Both the position numbers and the translations under genes were made by a program. DNA of 39,080 bases, from NCBI GenBank assembly GCA_014729725.1, contig WJJL01000007.1, positions 1 to 39,080 on the forward strand. The letters are read 5' to 3'. Position 1 is the first letter of the stretch. Every line of letters begins with the position of its first letter. This document shows, one piece after another, positions 24,263 through 32,751 of this stretch. This stretch comes from Candidatus Moraniibacteriota bacterium (GTDB taxonomy: Bacteria; Patescibacteriota; Minisyncoccia; CAIUEV01; JAHKAQ01). The notes below the pieces were generated by a model. That model was not told where the DNA came from and did not search any database. It worked only from the letters and a program-made list of their open reading frames with translations.

Positions 24263-24860
24263 ATGACAATCAATATGAATGATTCACATATTACAAGTAT
24301 TTCACAATTAAAAAGATTTTTGCAAGCTTCAATCAATTTCGATTTTAAGGGCATTTCCCAAAAAGAAAAATATATCTGGACAGAACATACCTTAACTAAA
24401 TTTAGATACCTTTCTTTGAGAAAAAAAATAAAAATATTGTAAAAAATTATCTTCATGAAATGACTGGGTGTTGTGATGCTCAACTGACAAGATTAATTGC
24501 TAAAAAGAAATACTTTTCCTACTAAATATGATCCTAAAGATATTGCTCTTCTAGCGGAAACTGATAATGTTCATAATCGCTTATCCGGTAGAGCCACTAA
24601 AGAAATATTCCAAAGACAATATAATAAATTTGGAAACAATAATTTTAAAAAATTAAGTAAAATTTCTGTTTCACATATTTACAATTTAAGAGAAAAAAAT
24701 CAGTATAAATCAAAATGTTTAATCTATTCAAAAACTCAAGCAATTCAAGTTGCGATTGGAGAAAGAAAAAAACCAAATCCAAAAGGCAAGCCCGGTTATA
24801 TAAGAGTTGATAGTGTTCATCAAGGAGATAAAAATAAAGACAAAGGAGTTTGTCATATAA
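24263..24860 (+). pseudogene. Integrase-core transposase remnant (frameshifted, truncated)
   Basis: The reading frame moves at least twice. The first part (ATG 24263) gives SISQLKRFLQAS...GISQKEKYIWTEHTLTKFRYLSLRKK. A second frame continues NIVKNYLHEMTGCCDAQLTRLI from ~24430. A third gives FPTKYDPKDIALLAETDNVHNRLSGRATKEIF...SVSHIYNLREK...GERKKPNPKGKPGYIRVDSVHQGD. Read together this follows, from memory, the transposases with an rve-type integrase core common in CPR genomes. The sequence stops just after the first catalytic Asp (RVDSVHQGD); the rest of the DDE core is missing. It is inactive. Confidence 0.8.
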
Positions 24861-24861
24861 T

Positions 24862-25004
24862 GCCACTGTTCAAATTTATAACAACAAAATCGCTTATCAG
24901 GTCGTCAATAAGGATAATGTATCTCCGTGATTATTGAAGATAAAAACATTCATGGCTTAAATAAAACCATGTTTGAGGCGCTTTGGGGAAACCTCTCTCA
25001 ATAA
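24862..25004 (+). pseudogene. C-terminal remnant of a TrmB-like transcriptional regulator
   Basis: Directly after the transposase remnant, a frame reads ATVQIYNNKIAYQVVNKDNVSP. After a one-base shift near 24927 it continues VIIEDKNIHGLNKTMFEALWGNLSQ and stops at 25002-25004. The pattern IYNNK-strand, then VIIEDK/EI, then MF-x-x-LW matches the C-terminal end of TrmB-type regulators. No N-terminal HTH is present nearby. It was probably cut by the IS event or deletion that removed the 3' half of the transposase. Confidence 0.5.
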
Positions 25005-26786: not shown

Positions 26787-28601
26787 ATGAGCGATAAAAA
26801 AGCCGATACAATCGAAATTCCTGCCATTATAACCGTCAAGGAATTCGCCGAAAAGCTCGATAAACCGGCTTCGGAAGTGATTAAAGTCCTTTTACAAAAC
26901 GGCTTTATCGCAAATATAAATCAAACTTTGGATTTCGAAACGGCTTCCTTGATCGCGATGGAATTCGATTATAAAACCGAATTAGAAAAAATCAAAGAAT
27001 CCGATGTTAATATAATTGCTCCGGAGCAATTGGCCGAGATTTTAAAACAGGAAAAGGAATCCGGTGAGAATTTAAAAGAACGACCCCCGATTGTGACCAT
27101 CTTAGGTCACGTGGATCACGGAAAAACCACGCTGTTGGATACAATCAGAAAAGCCAAGGTGGCCGAAGGCGAATCCGGAGGCATAACTCAACATATTACA
27201 TCCTATCAGGTTAAAATAAACGATAGATTGATTACCTTCATTGATACCCCCGGTCATGAAGCCTTTAGTCAAATGCGTTCCAGAGGAGCCGGCATTGCCG
27301 ATATTGCGATTTTGATTGTGGCGGCCGACGACGGAGTAAAACCTCAAACCAAAGAAGTAATTAAAAATTTAAAAAAAGGCGAAGTTCCAGTAATAGTTGC
27401 CATTAATAAAATAGACAAAGAGGACGCTAACCCCGAAATGGTTAAAAATCAACTGGCCGAGGCCGGATTGCTTTTGGAAGGCAGGGGCGGCGATATTCCT
27501 TTTGTCGAGATTTCGGCTAAAAATAATTTAAATATCGACAATCTGTTAGAGACGGTCCTTCTTTCGGCGGATATTTTGGAATTAAAAGCTGATTTTCAAA
27601 GAAGAGCTTTGGGAATTATTCTCGAGTCTCACCTGGATCAAAGAAAAGGAGCGGTGGCAACCGCAATTATTAAAACCGGATCTTTGAATGAAGGCGATTA
27701 CATAATCGCGGGCAACGCCGTAGGCACCGTACGCCAAATTCTCGACTACAACGATAAAAGAATAATCAAAGCCGAACCGGCCAGTCCGGTAGTCATTATT
27801 GGATTGGATAAAGTGACTAAAGCGGGATCGGTGCTCCAGGTTGAGGAAAGCAGATCGGCGGTTAAGGCAAAAACCAAGCGCTCCAACCTGGACAGTCATT
27901 ATTTGGATACCGAAAAAAAAGCCGACGTCAGAAAAATTGAAGGCGAATCCGAAGAGCAACAAGTGAAGATTCCCAAATTAAATATCATCCTAAAAGCCGA
28001 TGTGGAAGGATCGGTCGAAGCTATAAACCAAATTCTGTCATCCATCCCCCAAGACGAAATTATTTTAAACATTCTTCAATCCAAAGTCGGCAATATAACC
28101 GAAAACGATATTCAATTAGCAAAAACTTCCAATGCCATTGTGTATGGTTTTAAAACTATGGCTCCGGACAAGATAAAAAAAACCGCTGAAAAAAACAAGG
28201 TTAAAATCAAAATTTTCGATATAATTTATAAATTGGTGGAGGATATTAAGGAAGAGCTTTCCAATCTTTTGGAACCAGAAATAATTCGAGTCGACTTAGG
28301 CAAGTTAAAAGTATTAAAAGTTTTTAGAACCGAAAAAAACAAAATGATTGTCGGAGGCCGAGTTACTTCGGGAAAAGTAACCAAAAACGCTTTTTTTGAA
28401 ATTCTAAGAAACAAGGAATTATTGGGCGAAGGCAAAGTCGTCCAATTAAAGCATCTCGAGGAAAATGTCTCCGAAGTTAAATCGGGCAGCGAATGTGGAA
28501 TCACTTATGCCCCCAAAGAAAAAAAATCCTTCGTGAGAATAGAAGAAAACGATATTTTAAAATTCTATTTAGAGGAAGCAAAAAAAAGAAAAATTGAATA
28601 A
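26787..28601 (+). CDS. infB: Translation initiation factor IF-2 (short form)
   Basis: IF-2 is the GTPase that places fMet-tRNA on the 30S subunit and promotes subunit joining. At 604 residues it is much shorter than E. coli IF-2 (890) because the variable N-terminal region is missing; one IF2_N module (TVKEFAEKLDKPASEVIKVLLQNG, ~16-39) remains. G motifs are all present: GHVDHGKT (107-114), GGITQHI, DTPGHE, NKID, SAK. Domains II, III and the C-terminal fMet-tRNA-binding domain follow (LGEGKVVQLKHLEENVSEVKSG). Start ATG at 26787. It converges with the large membrane protein gene, with four bases between. Confidence 0.97.
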   Translation: MSDKKADTIEIPAIITVKEFAEKLDKPASEVIKVLLQNGFIANINQTLDFETASLIAMEFDYKTELEKIKESDVNIIAPEQLAEILKQEKESGENLKERPPIVTILGHVDHGKTTLLDTIRKAKVAEGESGGITQHITSYQVKINDRLITFIDTPGHEAFSQMRSRGAGIADIAILIVAADDGVKPQTKEVIKNLKKGEVPVIVAINKIDKEDANPEMVKNQLAEAGLLLEGRGGDIPFVEISAKNNLNIDNLLETVLLSADILELKADFQRRALGIILESHLDQRKGAVATAIIKTGSLNEGDYIIAGNAVGTVRQILDYNDKRIIKAEPASPVVIIGLDKVTKAGSVLQVEESRSAVKAKTKRSNLDSHYLDTEKKADVRKIEGESEEQQVKIPKLNIILKADVEGSVEAINQILSSIPQDEIILNILQSKVGNITENDIQLAKTSNAIVYGFKTMAPDKIKKTAEKNKVKIKIFDIIYKLVEDIKEELSNLLEPEIIRVDLGKLKVLKVFRTEKNKMIVGGRVTSGKVTKNAFFEILRNKELLGEGKVVQLKHLEENVSEVKSGSECGITYAPKEKKSFVRIEENDILKFYLEEAKKRKIE

Positions 28602-28605
28602 CAAG

Positions 28606-31026
28606 CTACTTTACTCTTTCTCCCAAGGTCCTTAGATTATAAAATTTAACCCCTCGATCGAATTCATGACCTTTGACCGGAACTCCTTTGGTATCGGTTA
28701 TTTCAAATCTGATTATATTTTCCCCCGGTTTTACCCTGTTCAGATTAACAATATGTTCTTCCTTATCTTCTTCTATGTTTATTTCTTCCACGTATTCTTC
28801 ATTGAGATAAACTTTTACCACTCTTAAATTTTTGATCCTGGTATTAAATAACAATCTCAAATTTTGTTCATAATCCGCCATATTAACCAATCTCAATTTA
28901 GCTCCGTTTATCGCCGATCTTTTCACCGACCTGCCTTTGCCCTCTTTGGTATCCCAATAACTGCCTTTTAAATCCATGGCCAAAAACCATCCGTCGAGGT
29001 GCTCACTTTTGTTGACCCTAAAAGCGATCAGAAAATTATCCTCGTAAACCTTGGTCACATTGATTTCTTGATTAATAAAATCGAGAGTTTTGTTAAAGGC
29101 CTCCTGATCAAATTTTTTATCGTTGGACATCGCCTCCTTGGCGACTATGATATATCTAACATTGTAGAAATTCAATATTTTGGTGCCTAAATTATAATAA
29201 TAATCGTTGATAATCTCTTTTCTCGGCGGCGTGCCCCCCTCCGCAAGAGTATAGAGCAGTTCGGAAATTACAGGAGTGTTTTCCTGAAAATCCCAATTGT
29301 CATCAACCTCTCTGGCAAAATCTTTGCCGGCCAGATTATTTTTCCGATGAATCTGGTTATAGATCATGGATTTGGAGGCATAAGAATAACTGCTGGCCGC
29401 CGGAATCTCAATAATCGAATAGTTCTCTTTATCCGCTTTGATGATATCGAAAAACCGGCTATAGTTCATACTCATAGTCGGAACAGGAAAACTTAAATAT
29501 TCCAGAGTGATCAAAGAGATTATCACGACTGTAATCAATTTGGGAACCCTTGCTTTTAACTGCGCTTTATCAATCTTCTGTTTTGTTTTTCGAGTTTTCT
29601 TTTTGCCCTTTTTGCCGCCTGTTTTTTTCAATTTGTTAATTAAGAAAAGGAAGTCTTTTTTGCTTTTTTCGAAGCGTTTAAAAAAGTCTTTTGTTTCTTC
29701 TTTAAAGCGTTTTACCACAAATTTTTTCAACTGCTTCCAGTTTTTAATTCGGGCTTTTTCTTTTTTAATTCTGTTCTTTTTCCTTTTTTGAATAACCTGT
29801 TTTTTCCTGAATTCGGCCTTTTGTCTAATTATTTCGCGTTTGAAGAAGCGTTTGTTTAATTTTCGAATAATATACTGCGCCCCAAAACCGGCTGAAACGG
29901 AAAAACACATCAGGGAAATAACATATATCCGGCTCACCGTTCTAATATTGGACCAATATTTTATATTGTCGTAATAAAAAGCCCAAGGCATTTGAATATC
30001 CTGATTTATATTGCCCATTGTTATCAAATAAGGACCGAAAGACATCAAGGTGAAATAAATTCCGCTAAAAACAAAAAATAATTTGATCCAGAATCTTCTT
30101 TTGTAGTCGAAGAGGGATAAAAGCGATAAAATCAAGACCGTAAATCCTATATAAGTGGATTTTTGACCTAAACTATTCGAAATCGTATTATCTCTGTATC
30201 GGTTAAAAAAGTCTCCCCAAATCGGATGATAGGCCTGAGGCAAGATGGGTTCAATGAGATCGGCTGAATAGCGAATAACCTGATCTTTTCCGGCATCAAG
30301 ATAGTTGTCTTTGGAGTTGGAAATTACAAACAGCGGACCGAATAAAAATTTTATAAAAACAAAAAAGGTTAAAACGCCTATGCCTATATACAGCCAGATC
30401 TTCCATTCAACCAGTTTTTCACTGTTTTTAATAAAGAAAGCCAAGGTGAAAAAGACAATAAAGGGGAAGATAAAAGCCAATAACTGATGCTCGGCAAAAG
30501 TGACAAAGGCCAGAAACAAACCGGCCAATAAAAAATTTTTAATTTCAAGGGTTCTTAAAAACTTAAAATAGAATAAAACAAAAAAAGGCAGCCATTCGTA
30601 ATGCATCGTGCCGATATTGGTCGAAATCGCCTGCGAAATATGAAAAGGCGAAAAGGCGAAAATGATTCCCGAAATCATAGCCGCCGATTTATTTTTGGTC
30701 AGGTACAAAACTAAAAGGTACATGCCGACCGCGGCTATCAAAAAAGAACCAAGCCACACTATATTATAACCCACAAAATCGTTGGTTAAATATTGGAACC
30801 AGGGAATAACCTCGACCGGAGTGAATTTTAGATTTTTTATTTGAAACCAGATGGTGGAAAAAATCCCATGGTCTGAAATAAAATTTTGAAAAGCCAAAGT
30901 TTTCCCCCAAACCTGATAGGTATCGGAGTATTTGCCGGGAATTCGGTTAAACAGGAAAAGAATTACCGGAAGCGTGAATAAAAAAGTGTAAATTAAAAAA
31001 AAGTTAATAACCTTCTTATTTATCAT
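28606..31026 (-). CDS. Large polytopic membrane protein (GT-C/YfhO-like)
   Basis: 806 residues. About ten N-terminal TM helices (to ~385) begin with a hydrophobic segment followed by an extracytoplasmic loop containing GKYSDTYQVWGK, whose acidic residue is at the place of the GT-C catalytic Asp. A very basic 110-residue stretch (~386-494) lies between TM segments, then one more TM (VPKLITVVIISLITLEYLSF) and a ~300-residue outer domain. The layout resembles YfhO/GT-C membrane glycosyltransferases that use lipid-linked sugars; activity is inferred. Start ATG at 31026, one base after the riboflavin kinase-like gene stop, so the two are co-transcribed. Confidence 0.7.
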   Translation of the reverse strand: MINKKVINFFLIYTFLFTLPVILFLFNRIPGKYSDTYQVWGKTLAFQNFISDHGIFSTIWFQIKNLKFTPVEVIPWFQYLTNDFVGYNIVWLGSFLIAAVGMYLLVLYLTKNKSAAMISGIIFAFSPFHISQAISTNIGTMHYEWLPFFVLFYFKFLRTLEIKNFLLAGLFLAFVTFAEHQLLAFIFPFIVFFTLAFFIKNSEKLVEWKIWLYIGIGVLTFFVFIKFLFGPLFVISNSKDNYLDAGKDQVIRYSADLIEPILPQAYHPIWGDFFNRYRDNTISNSLGQKSTYIGFTVLILSLLSLFDYKRRFWIKLFFVFSGIYFTLMSFGPYLITMGNINQDIQMPWAFYYDNIKYWSNIRTVSRIYVISLMCFSVSAGFGAQYIIRKLNKRFFKREIIRQKAEFRKKQVIQKRKKNRIKKEKARIKNWKQLKKFVVKRFKEETKDFFKRFEKSKKDFLFLINKLKKTGGKKGKKKTRKTKQKIDKAQLKARVPKLITVVIISLITLEYLSFPVPTMSMNYSRFFDIIKADKENYSIIEIPAASSYSYASKSMIYNQIHRKNNLAGKDFAREVDDNWDFQENTPVISELLYTLAEGGTPPRKEIINDYYYNLGTKILNFYNVRYIIVAKEAMSNDKKFDQEAFNKTLDFINQEINVTKVYEDNFLIAFRVNKSEHLDGWFLAMDLKGSYWDTKEGKGRSVKRSAINGAKLRLVNMADYEQNLRLLFNTRIKNLRVVKVYLNEEYVEEINIEEDKEEHIVNLNRVKPGENIIRFEITDTKGVPVKGHEFDRGVKFYNLRTLGERVK

Positions 31027-31027
31027 A

Positions 31028-31804
31028 TTAGAACTTAATTTCCATTAATTGATCGTCTGCTAAATTAAATTTTTTCCTTAAATTTTGGGGATGAATTATC
31101 TCAATTATTTCTTCATTATACATTGTTTTTTGAGCTTTAACCACCCAGGCCCTCAAATCAACTTTTAGTCTCTTAAAAGCTGGCTCTTTGTCAATTATAC
31201 TTTTTATTTTTATAGGATAAATATAAATATCCCCGAATTCCCGATCTCCTTCTTTGAATCCCCTGATTAAAGTCATCTTTTTTTTATTGACATTTTTTAA
31301 ATAGTTCTTATTGCCCAAGTTAAGATTTAAAGTTCCCGGATAAATTTCTTTTTTAATTACGCTTTCTATTTTATTTTTATAAATCGGCGTATTTAAAAAA
31401 CTGCCGGCTTTTTTTTCTCCGCTGAAAATTCTTCCCAAAAAACTGTTAAAATCCTTTTTGTAATCAGGCAGTTTTTTCATGCGTTTTATTTTAATCTTAT
31501 CCTTTTTGATGATCGAAAGCACTTTCGAGGGCAGCTCCTGATCATACCCTAAACAGATTACCTGCGGCTTGATTTTTTTGACGAGCTTTGAAAAATCATC
31601 TTGGCTTCCAATTTTTAGATTTTTGATCATTTTTAAATTTTCCAGCTGGCTTAATCTTTTTTGGGCGCTTATTTTATTCAACTTGTTGTTGTTTTTATCG
31701 TGAGCCACAATTACGAATAATTCTCCATAGGCGGAGCATTGGTTGAAAAAATAAATATGTCCGGGATGAAGATGGTTAAAACAACCGCCGCAAATAACTT
31801 TCAT
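31028..31804 (-). CDS. Archaeal-type FAD synthase / CTP-dependent riboflavin kinase fusion
   Basis: 258 residues in two parts. Residues 1-~115 are a nucleotidyltransferase with the GGCFNHLHPGH signature (GxF-x-x-xHxGH) and a KRLSQLENLK segment, as in archaeal RibL FAD synthases. Residues ~125-258 match archaeal CTP-dependent riboflavin kinase (RibK, DUF120): YPGTLNLNL (155-163), FGDIYIYPIKI, then EEIIEIIHPQNLRKKFNLADDQLMEI (231-256), close to M. jannaschii MJ0056 as I remember it. Together they would convert riboflavin to FMN and FAD. Bacteria normally use RibF with an ATP-dependent kinase of another fold, so this is an unusual form. Start ATG at 31804. Confidence 0.78.
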   Translation of the reverse strand: MKVICGGCFNHLHPGHIYFFNQCSAYGELFVIVAHDKNNNKLNKISAQKRLSQLENLKMIKNLKIGSQDDFSKLVKKIKPQVICLGYDQELPSKVLSIIKKDKIKIKRMKKLPDYKKDFNSFLGRIFSGEKKAGSFLNTPIYKNKIESVIKKEIYPGTLNLNLGNKNYLKNVNKKKMTLIRGFKEGDREFGDIYIYPIKIKSIIDKEPAFKRLKVDLRAWVVKAQKTMYNEEIIEIIHPQNLRKKFNLADDQLMEIKF

Positions 31805-31911: not shown

Positions 31912-32751
31912 ATGCAGCCATTTCGAAAAAAAATTATTTTTTTAATTGTTTTTTCTCTAATTTTTTTAGGGATTATTTTTCTTCTTGATAAAAAAAATCC
32001 GGATAATGACCTTAAATTCATCAGGGATATTCCCAGAAATGAAACTGTTGAAACTAAAACTGATAAATCTTCCGATTCGGCAATAGCCATTAATTCCCAG
32101 GAAGATAAAAAGGACAACTCAAAAGCCGAAACTGAAACCTCAGCTAATGATAACCGGGAACAAAAACCAAAGCTCCCTAAAAAAATTATTAACGACGCTC
32201 CCTTCGTTCCTCAAGCCCCTTATAAAAATTGGGACCACCTGCATAACGAGGCTTGTGAAGAAGCGGCTATTATCACGGCTCATTTTTATCTTTTAGGAGA
32301 GGACAAAGTGGACAAAGAAGCGGCCGAGCGTGAAATCCAAAATCTGGTCGATCGTCAAAAGCAAATTTTTGGAGAACATCGAGATATAACGGCTCAGGAA
32401 ATGGTTGACCTGGCCGAAAACTTTTATCAGGAGGAATACGATTTAGTCGAAAATTATTCTTTAGAAAAAATAAAAACTTACTTGGCCGAAGGATCGATTA
32501 TAATCACCCCCGTTGCCGGACGCACTTTGGAAAACCCCTATTTCAAACAACCGGGACCCTTGTATCATGCTGTTGTTTTGATAGGATATGATGAAAAAAG
32601 AAAAGAGTTCATCACTCAAGAGCCCGGCACCAAAAGAGGAGAGAAATACAGGTATTCCTATGACGTGATTTTAAATGCTATCCATGACTTTCCAGGCCAA
32701 AAAGAGGATATCCTTAGTGGCCAAAAAATTATTATTGTTGTTTCAAAATAA
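31912..32751 (+). CDS. C39-like cysteine peptidase, membrane-anchored
   Basis: 279 residues. One N-terminal TM (~7-25) and a Ser/Lys/Glu-rich linker (~26-92) precede a papain-like C39_2 domain with VPQAPY at its start, the active-site Cys115 in HNEACEEAAI, and His219 in PLYHAVVLIGYD. The third residue of the triad is not obvious (FITQEPG). The domain would face outside the membrane. Related domains cleave peptides or bacteriocin leaders; no transporter is fused here. The stop overlaps the next start (TAATG at 32749-32753). Start ATG at 31912. Confidence 0.85.
   Translation: MQPFRKKIIFLIVFSLIFLGIIFLLDKKNPDNDLKFIRDIPRNETVETKTDKSSDSAIAINSQEDKKDNSKAETETSANDNREQKPKLPKKIINDAPFVPQAPYKNWDHLHNEACEEAAIITAHFYLLGEDKVDKEAAEREIQNLVDRQKQIFGEHRDITAQEMVDLAENFYQEEYDLVENYSLEKIKTYLAEGSIIITPVAGRTLENPYFKQPGPLYHAVVLIGYDEKRKEFITQEPGTKRGEKYRYSYDVILNAIHDFPGQKEDILSGQKIIIVVSK

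Follow-up and report, generated by a model that had tools for sequence, protein, structure and literature searches.

The minus strand of the 39,080-nucleotide stretch of DNA analysed here (the window) carries a gene for a 258-residue protein that is most likely a bifunctional riboflavin kinase/FMN adenylyltransferase: a RibF rebuilt from archaeal parts, in the same domain order. We consider it quite probable that this enzyme forms FMN and FAD, that within a single family of Patescibacteria it stands in for RibF, and that its RibL half was acquired horizontally. The domains are known ones; the architecture and the host lineage are new, and no report of a RibL–RibK fusion, or of a CTP-dependent riboflavin kinase in bacteria, was found in the openly licensed literature. 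The gene and its two domains are located as follows.

31028–31804, minus strand: RibL–RibK fusion gene, predicted bifunctional riboflavin kinase/FMN adenylyltransferase, 258 residues (from the open reading frame, Pfam, orthologs and structure matches)
31451–31804, minus strand: N-terminal RibL-like nucleotidyltransferase domain, residues 1–118 (from PF01467, the match to 3glv, the tree and the AU test)
31031–31429, minus strand: C-terminal RibK (PF01982/DUF120) domain, residues 126–258 (from PF01982, MJ0056 and the Foldseek match to 2vbv)

The open reading frame is intact and begins with ATG. Pfam assigns residues 126–257 to PF01982, the CTP-dependent riboflavin kinase family, with an E value of 1e-22 and 80.8 bits (curated cutoff 25 bits), and the match covers profile positions 1–120 of 121. 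Residues 4–107 match PF01467 with 47.7 bits and an E value of 2.3e-12 (cutoff 21 bits). The N-terminal half displays the motifs GGCFNHLHPGH (HxGH) and LGYDQ, and the C-terminal half displays PGTLNLNL, with the metal-ligand motif PGTLN, and EIIEIIHP (IIEII). The NCBIfam model NF040694 (ribK_Meth) also matches the protein, with a score under its equivalog cutoff, and the RibF domains PF06574 and PF01687 are absent from its Pfam matches. In a sequence search against solved structures the nearest entry to the N-terminal half is 3glv from Thermoplasma volcanium (E value of 4.8e-14), which is labelled as a lipopolysaccharide core biosynthesis protein and is RibL-like by sequence; the C-terminal half matches MJ0056 (1.7e-10) and also the Thermoplasma riboflavin kinase RbkR (3cta/5trd). 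An AlphaFold model, computed from six sequences, has a pLDDT of 78 and a pTM of 0.66, with low values in the linker region around residues 119–133, and its best Foldseek matches are 3glv (1.3e-8) and 2vbv, the complex of MJ0056 with CDP and FMN (2.3e-8). The first-pass annotation, which had read the protein from its motifs as an archaeal FAD synthase joined to an archaeal CTP-dependent riboflavin kinase in one bacterial gene, is thus borne out for the C-terminal half by the whole-profile match and the structural resemblance to MJ0056, for the N-terminal half by PF01467, both motifs and an archaeal position in the tree described below, and for their union by the intact frame and four full-length orthologs.

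These orthologs are the window protein, a second copy on another contig of the same bin (C69) and one protein each from two genomes that share the GTDB family of the bin, one of these genomes being labelled Moraniibacteriota. They are 35–47% identical to one another. Since the same architecture recurs in four proteins as divergent as these, the fusion is neither a product of chance nor an assembly artefact. Their alignment keeps Gly7, Phe9, Asn10, His13, Gly15, His16, GYDQ, PGTLN and Glu235–Ile237 invariant, the pattern that long-term purifying selection on what would be two active sites should produce. The N-terminal domain would adenylylate FMN with ATP to give FAD through its HxGH motif, and the C-terminal domain would turn riboflavin into FMN by phosphorylation, with CTP as the probable phosphate donor, as for MJ0056. 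From the MJ0056 structures we take T-x-N of GTLN to be a metal contact and the glutamate of IIEII a flavin contact, and the glycine-rich CTP loop GLGEGR (GxGxGR) and KLRE to be CDP contacts. The threonine, asparagine and glutamate are kept in all four orthologs. In the window protein GEKKAG stands in place of the CTP loop motif and NLRK in place of KLRE; the two sites differ between the orthologs, being kept in part or not at all, and some archaeal members are divergent there too. CTP use by the kinase is accordingly a prediction.

The poor conservation of the CTP loop and KLRE allows another reading, which we regard as improbable: only the RibL half would be active, converting FMN to FAD, while the degenerate RibK half would bind or sense flavin or FMN, and FMN would come from neighbours. 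Many other Patescibacteria have a standalone RibL-like protein with neither RibK nor RibF, so that a RibL-only life may be common. Against this stand the invariance of T-x-N and of the flavin-side glutamate at 35–47% identity and a PF01982 match that spans the whole profile, and we favor the bifunctional enzyme.

The RibL tree was built from 70 RibL-type domains and 130 columns. The four fusions form a single clade (100/97) nested inside the archaeal RibLs at a node that unites them with 18 archaeal sequences (98/85), and their neighbors are the Aenigmatarchaeota-type sequences L017, L018, L019 and L102; the N-terminal domain is 45–48% identical to the first three. Thirty standalone RibL-like proteins of Patescibacteria fall elsewhere, and forcing the fusions together with them is rejected (p-AU of 0.006, from 130 columns and with the group picked after the tree was seen). 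Because the fusion RibLs are nested in the archaeal ones next to Aenigmatarchaeota-type sequences, the tree points to horizontal acquisition of the RibL half from archaea. The RibK halves also form one clade (94/87); this half has diverged, and the tree does not fix its nearest archaeal group. As the comparators in the RibK tree are nearly all archaeal, that tree alone gives no proof of the direction of transfer. We infer that a DPANN-type (Aenigmatarchaeota-like) archaeon was the horizontal donor of the RibL half, and probably of the whole pair, a reading that stays conditional as to where the RibK half came from and where the two were joined.

The position of the N-terminal domain also bears on its substrate. 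PF01467 is a broad family, and the best NCBIfam equivalog matches of the domain are to HldE- and CoaD-type models, all far under their cutoffs, in a search that returned no archaeal RibL match for comparison. The domain might on these grounds act on a sugar phosphate, glycerol phosphate or phosphopantetheine (cf. HldE, TagD and CoaD) and not as an FAD synthase. We consider this very unlikely, given its nesting within archaeal RibLs, the retention of GYDQ and its union with a riboflavin kinase domain; furthermore, the only matches in a tblastn search of plasmids are Natrinema (haloarchaeal) proteins annotated as FAD synthases. FMN adenylylation accordingly remains the activity that we would assign to it.

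The fusion is confined to one family in all of the sets searched. The source bin (1.14 Mb in 69 contigs, 94.7% complete) contains two PF01982 genes, both of them fusions. Among 93 relatives PF01982 occurs only in the source genome and two others of its family, and a search with the full fusion across the order recovered the same genomes and one weak nucleotidyltransferase match. The fusion was not found in two of the five genomes of the family, both drafts that are 88–92% complete, nor outside the family in any of 286 other sampled Patescibacteria. A scan of 84,980 species located it in JAHKAQ010000052.1 (Patescibacteria) and WJJI01000010.1 (labelled Moraniibacteriota), together with three standalone archaeal RibLs; it gave no fusion outside the family, with patterns drawn from the RibL half only, which would miss fusions with a different RibL. 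Among 156 DPANN-type genomes, with the loci of the best matches inspected, no RibL–RibK fusion was present, and RibK is either standalone or located behind other N-terminal regions. None was found among viral contigs. Across 287 genomes spanning the phylum, PF01982 occurs in only one other, a genome of another family (L004), in which a standalone 117-residue RibK (L004:1316–1669) lies beside phage-like genes; this may be a viral or misbinned contig.

Three further genes of the window define the neighborhood of the fusion.

26787–28601, plus strand: infB (IF-2), bacterial (from Pfam), bordering the block in three loci (window, C69 and L016)
28606–31026, minus strand: large membrane protein of 806 residues, downstream partner in a putative operon (PF10131-like, sub-threshold)
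31912–32751, plus strand: C39-like peptidase gene, divergent neighbor, also beside the fusion in L016 (60% identical)

The membrane-protein gene lies directly downstream of the fusion on the same strand with a 1 bp gap, and the same gene follows the fusion in all four orthologs with a spacing of 1–67 bp. The chaining that had struck the first-pass annotation as odd is therefore a real and conserved adjacency. By its sequence the membrane protein gives no apparent hint of a flavin role, its PF10131 match being below threshold. The infB gene comes next in the three loci whose contig extends that far, and C69 and L016 additionally share a 193-residue protein without a Pfam family, a small protein and dus. 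With a bacterial infB beside the block, the fusion gene sits in a bacterial chromosome. That the contig is archaeal contamination, as the archaeal resemblance of both halves and the duplicate blocks with two infB genes might suggest, is refuted by its bacterial flanks (infB from Pfam; polA, pnp, lspA and a penicillin-binding protein from translations) and by the same gene order in the independent Patescibacteria assemblies L015 and L016, and we give it practically no weight.

The bin holds two syntenic infB–membrane protein–fusion blocks, one in the window (G000:C29) and one on G000:C69 (L003, L129), the latter with its own rpmE–infB–membrane protein block. The infB genes from three loci (window, C69, L016) differ from one another to much the same degree (66–68% identity, with 66% between the window and C69). 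Paralogous duplication is disfavored by these near-equal distances, which are not proof, and for the same reason a foreign contig is likelier: one of the two contigs, C29 or C69, probably belongs to another, related organism. C69 also carries (L129:1556–8632, read from translations) a near-complete tryptophan operon, trpE, trpG, trpD, trpC, trpB and trpA, with a trpS-like gene interposed, which is unusual for so reduced a genome. Elsewhere in the window, the open reading frame at 24497–24937 resembles an integrase-type transposase remnant (RVDSVHQGDKNKDKGVCHI) and is possibly a degraded insertion element.

Bacteria usually make FMN and FAD with RibF. Family profile searches found neither PF06574 nor PF01687 in the bin, and PF06574 is absent from the other members of the fusion-bearing family. 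The first-pass annotation had set the gene against this bacterial norm; the lack of RibF holds for the bin and is not peculiar to it, being usual in this part of Patescibacteria. PF06574 matches occur in 24 of the 93 relatives, with a convincing RibF in only two (L007 and L008), and those of the remaining matches that were inspected are short RibL-like proteins. The unusual trait is thus the possession of a replacement kinase rather than the lack of RibF. The genome encodes the flavin users pyrD (FMN) and pyrK (FAD), both on C31, and therefore needs both cofactors; no FMN riboswitch was found in the window. All Parcubacteria examined at the time of an earlier study were without riboflavin synthesis and without ribKL/ribF, with flavoenzymes such as MurB and TrxB present, and their flavin supply was left unexplained (PMC4508563).

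RibL-type matches occur in 168 of the 287 sampled Patescibacteria genomes (L009–L013 and L070–L098 among them). The best are standalone proteins of about 130–170 residues, several of which were read with HxGH and GYDQ, with no visible riboflavin kinase accompanying them. These proteins are possible FMN adenylyltransferases of lineages in which FAD synthase is said to be missing. Among the weaker matches there are probably other nucleotidyltransferases as well.

The fusion offers a concrete, testable gene for flavin cofactor supply in one family of Patescibacteria, in which it would replace RibF, and one answer to how RibF-lacking CPR bacteria obtain FMN and FAD. It would also be a case in which ultra-small bacteria received a cofactor pathway from archaea, and in which the domain order of RibF arose again, with a kinase unrelated to that of RibF and an adenylyltransferase of archaeal type. 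We lean, by a little over even chances, towards a broader view in which bifunctional riboflavin kinase/FAD synthase was invented a second time, independently, as a fusion that uses both CTP and ATP, joins two archaeal enzymes gained by horizontal transfer and restored FMN and FAD formation from riboflavin after loss of RibF, the RibL-like proteins widespread among other Patescibacteria representing a parallel kinase-less state.

Among known systems, the C-terminal domain resembles MJ0056 RibK (PF01982, DUF120) in its full-length profile match, GTLN, IIEII and fold, and differs in its location behind a RibL domain, some 15 extra residues inserted ahead of the AWVV strand, the degenerate CTP loop and the bacterial host. 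The N-terminal domain has HxGH and GYDQ in common with archaeal RibL (MJ1179 type; 3glv; L017–L019), which is standalone in the sampled archaea and fused in the Patescibacteria family. Archaeal RibL works with ATP and, more slowly, with CTP and GTP as well, as cited in PMC11423594. Bacterial RibF (PF06574 and PF01687) shares the predicted reaction pair and the order of adenylyltransferase followed by kinase, whereas the kinase domain of the fusion is unrelated to it in sequence and the adenylyltransferase belongs to the archaeal branch of the same wide superfamily. RbkR of Thermoplasma (3cta/5trd) likewise combines RibK with an N-terminal partner, which is a DNA-binding winged-helix domain instead of RibL. 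EhFADS of Entamoeba histolytica is also an FAD synthase of archaeal type that an organism outside Archaea acquired by lateral transfer, but it is standalone, eukaryotic and without a fused kinase (PMC11423594).
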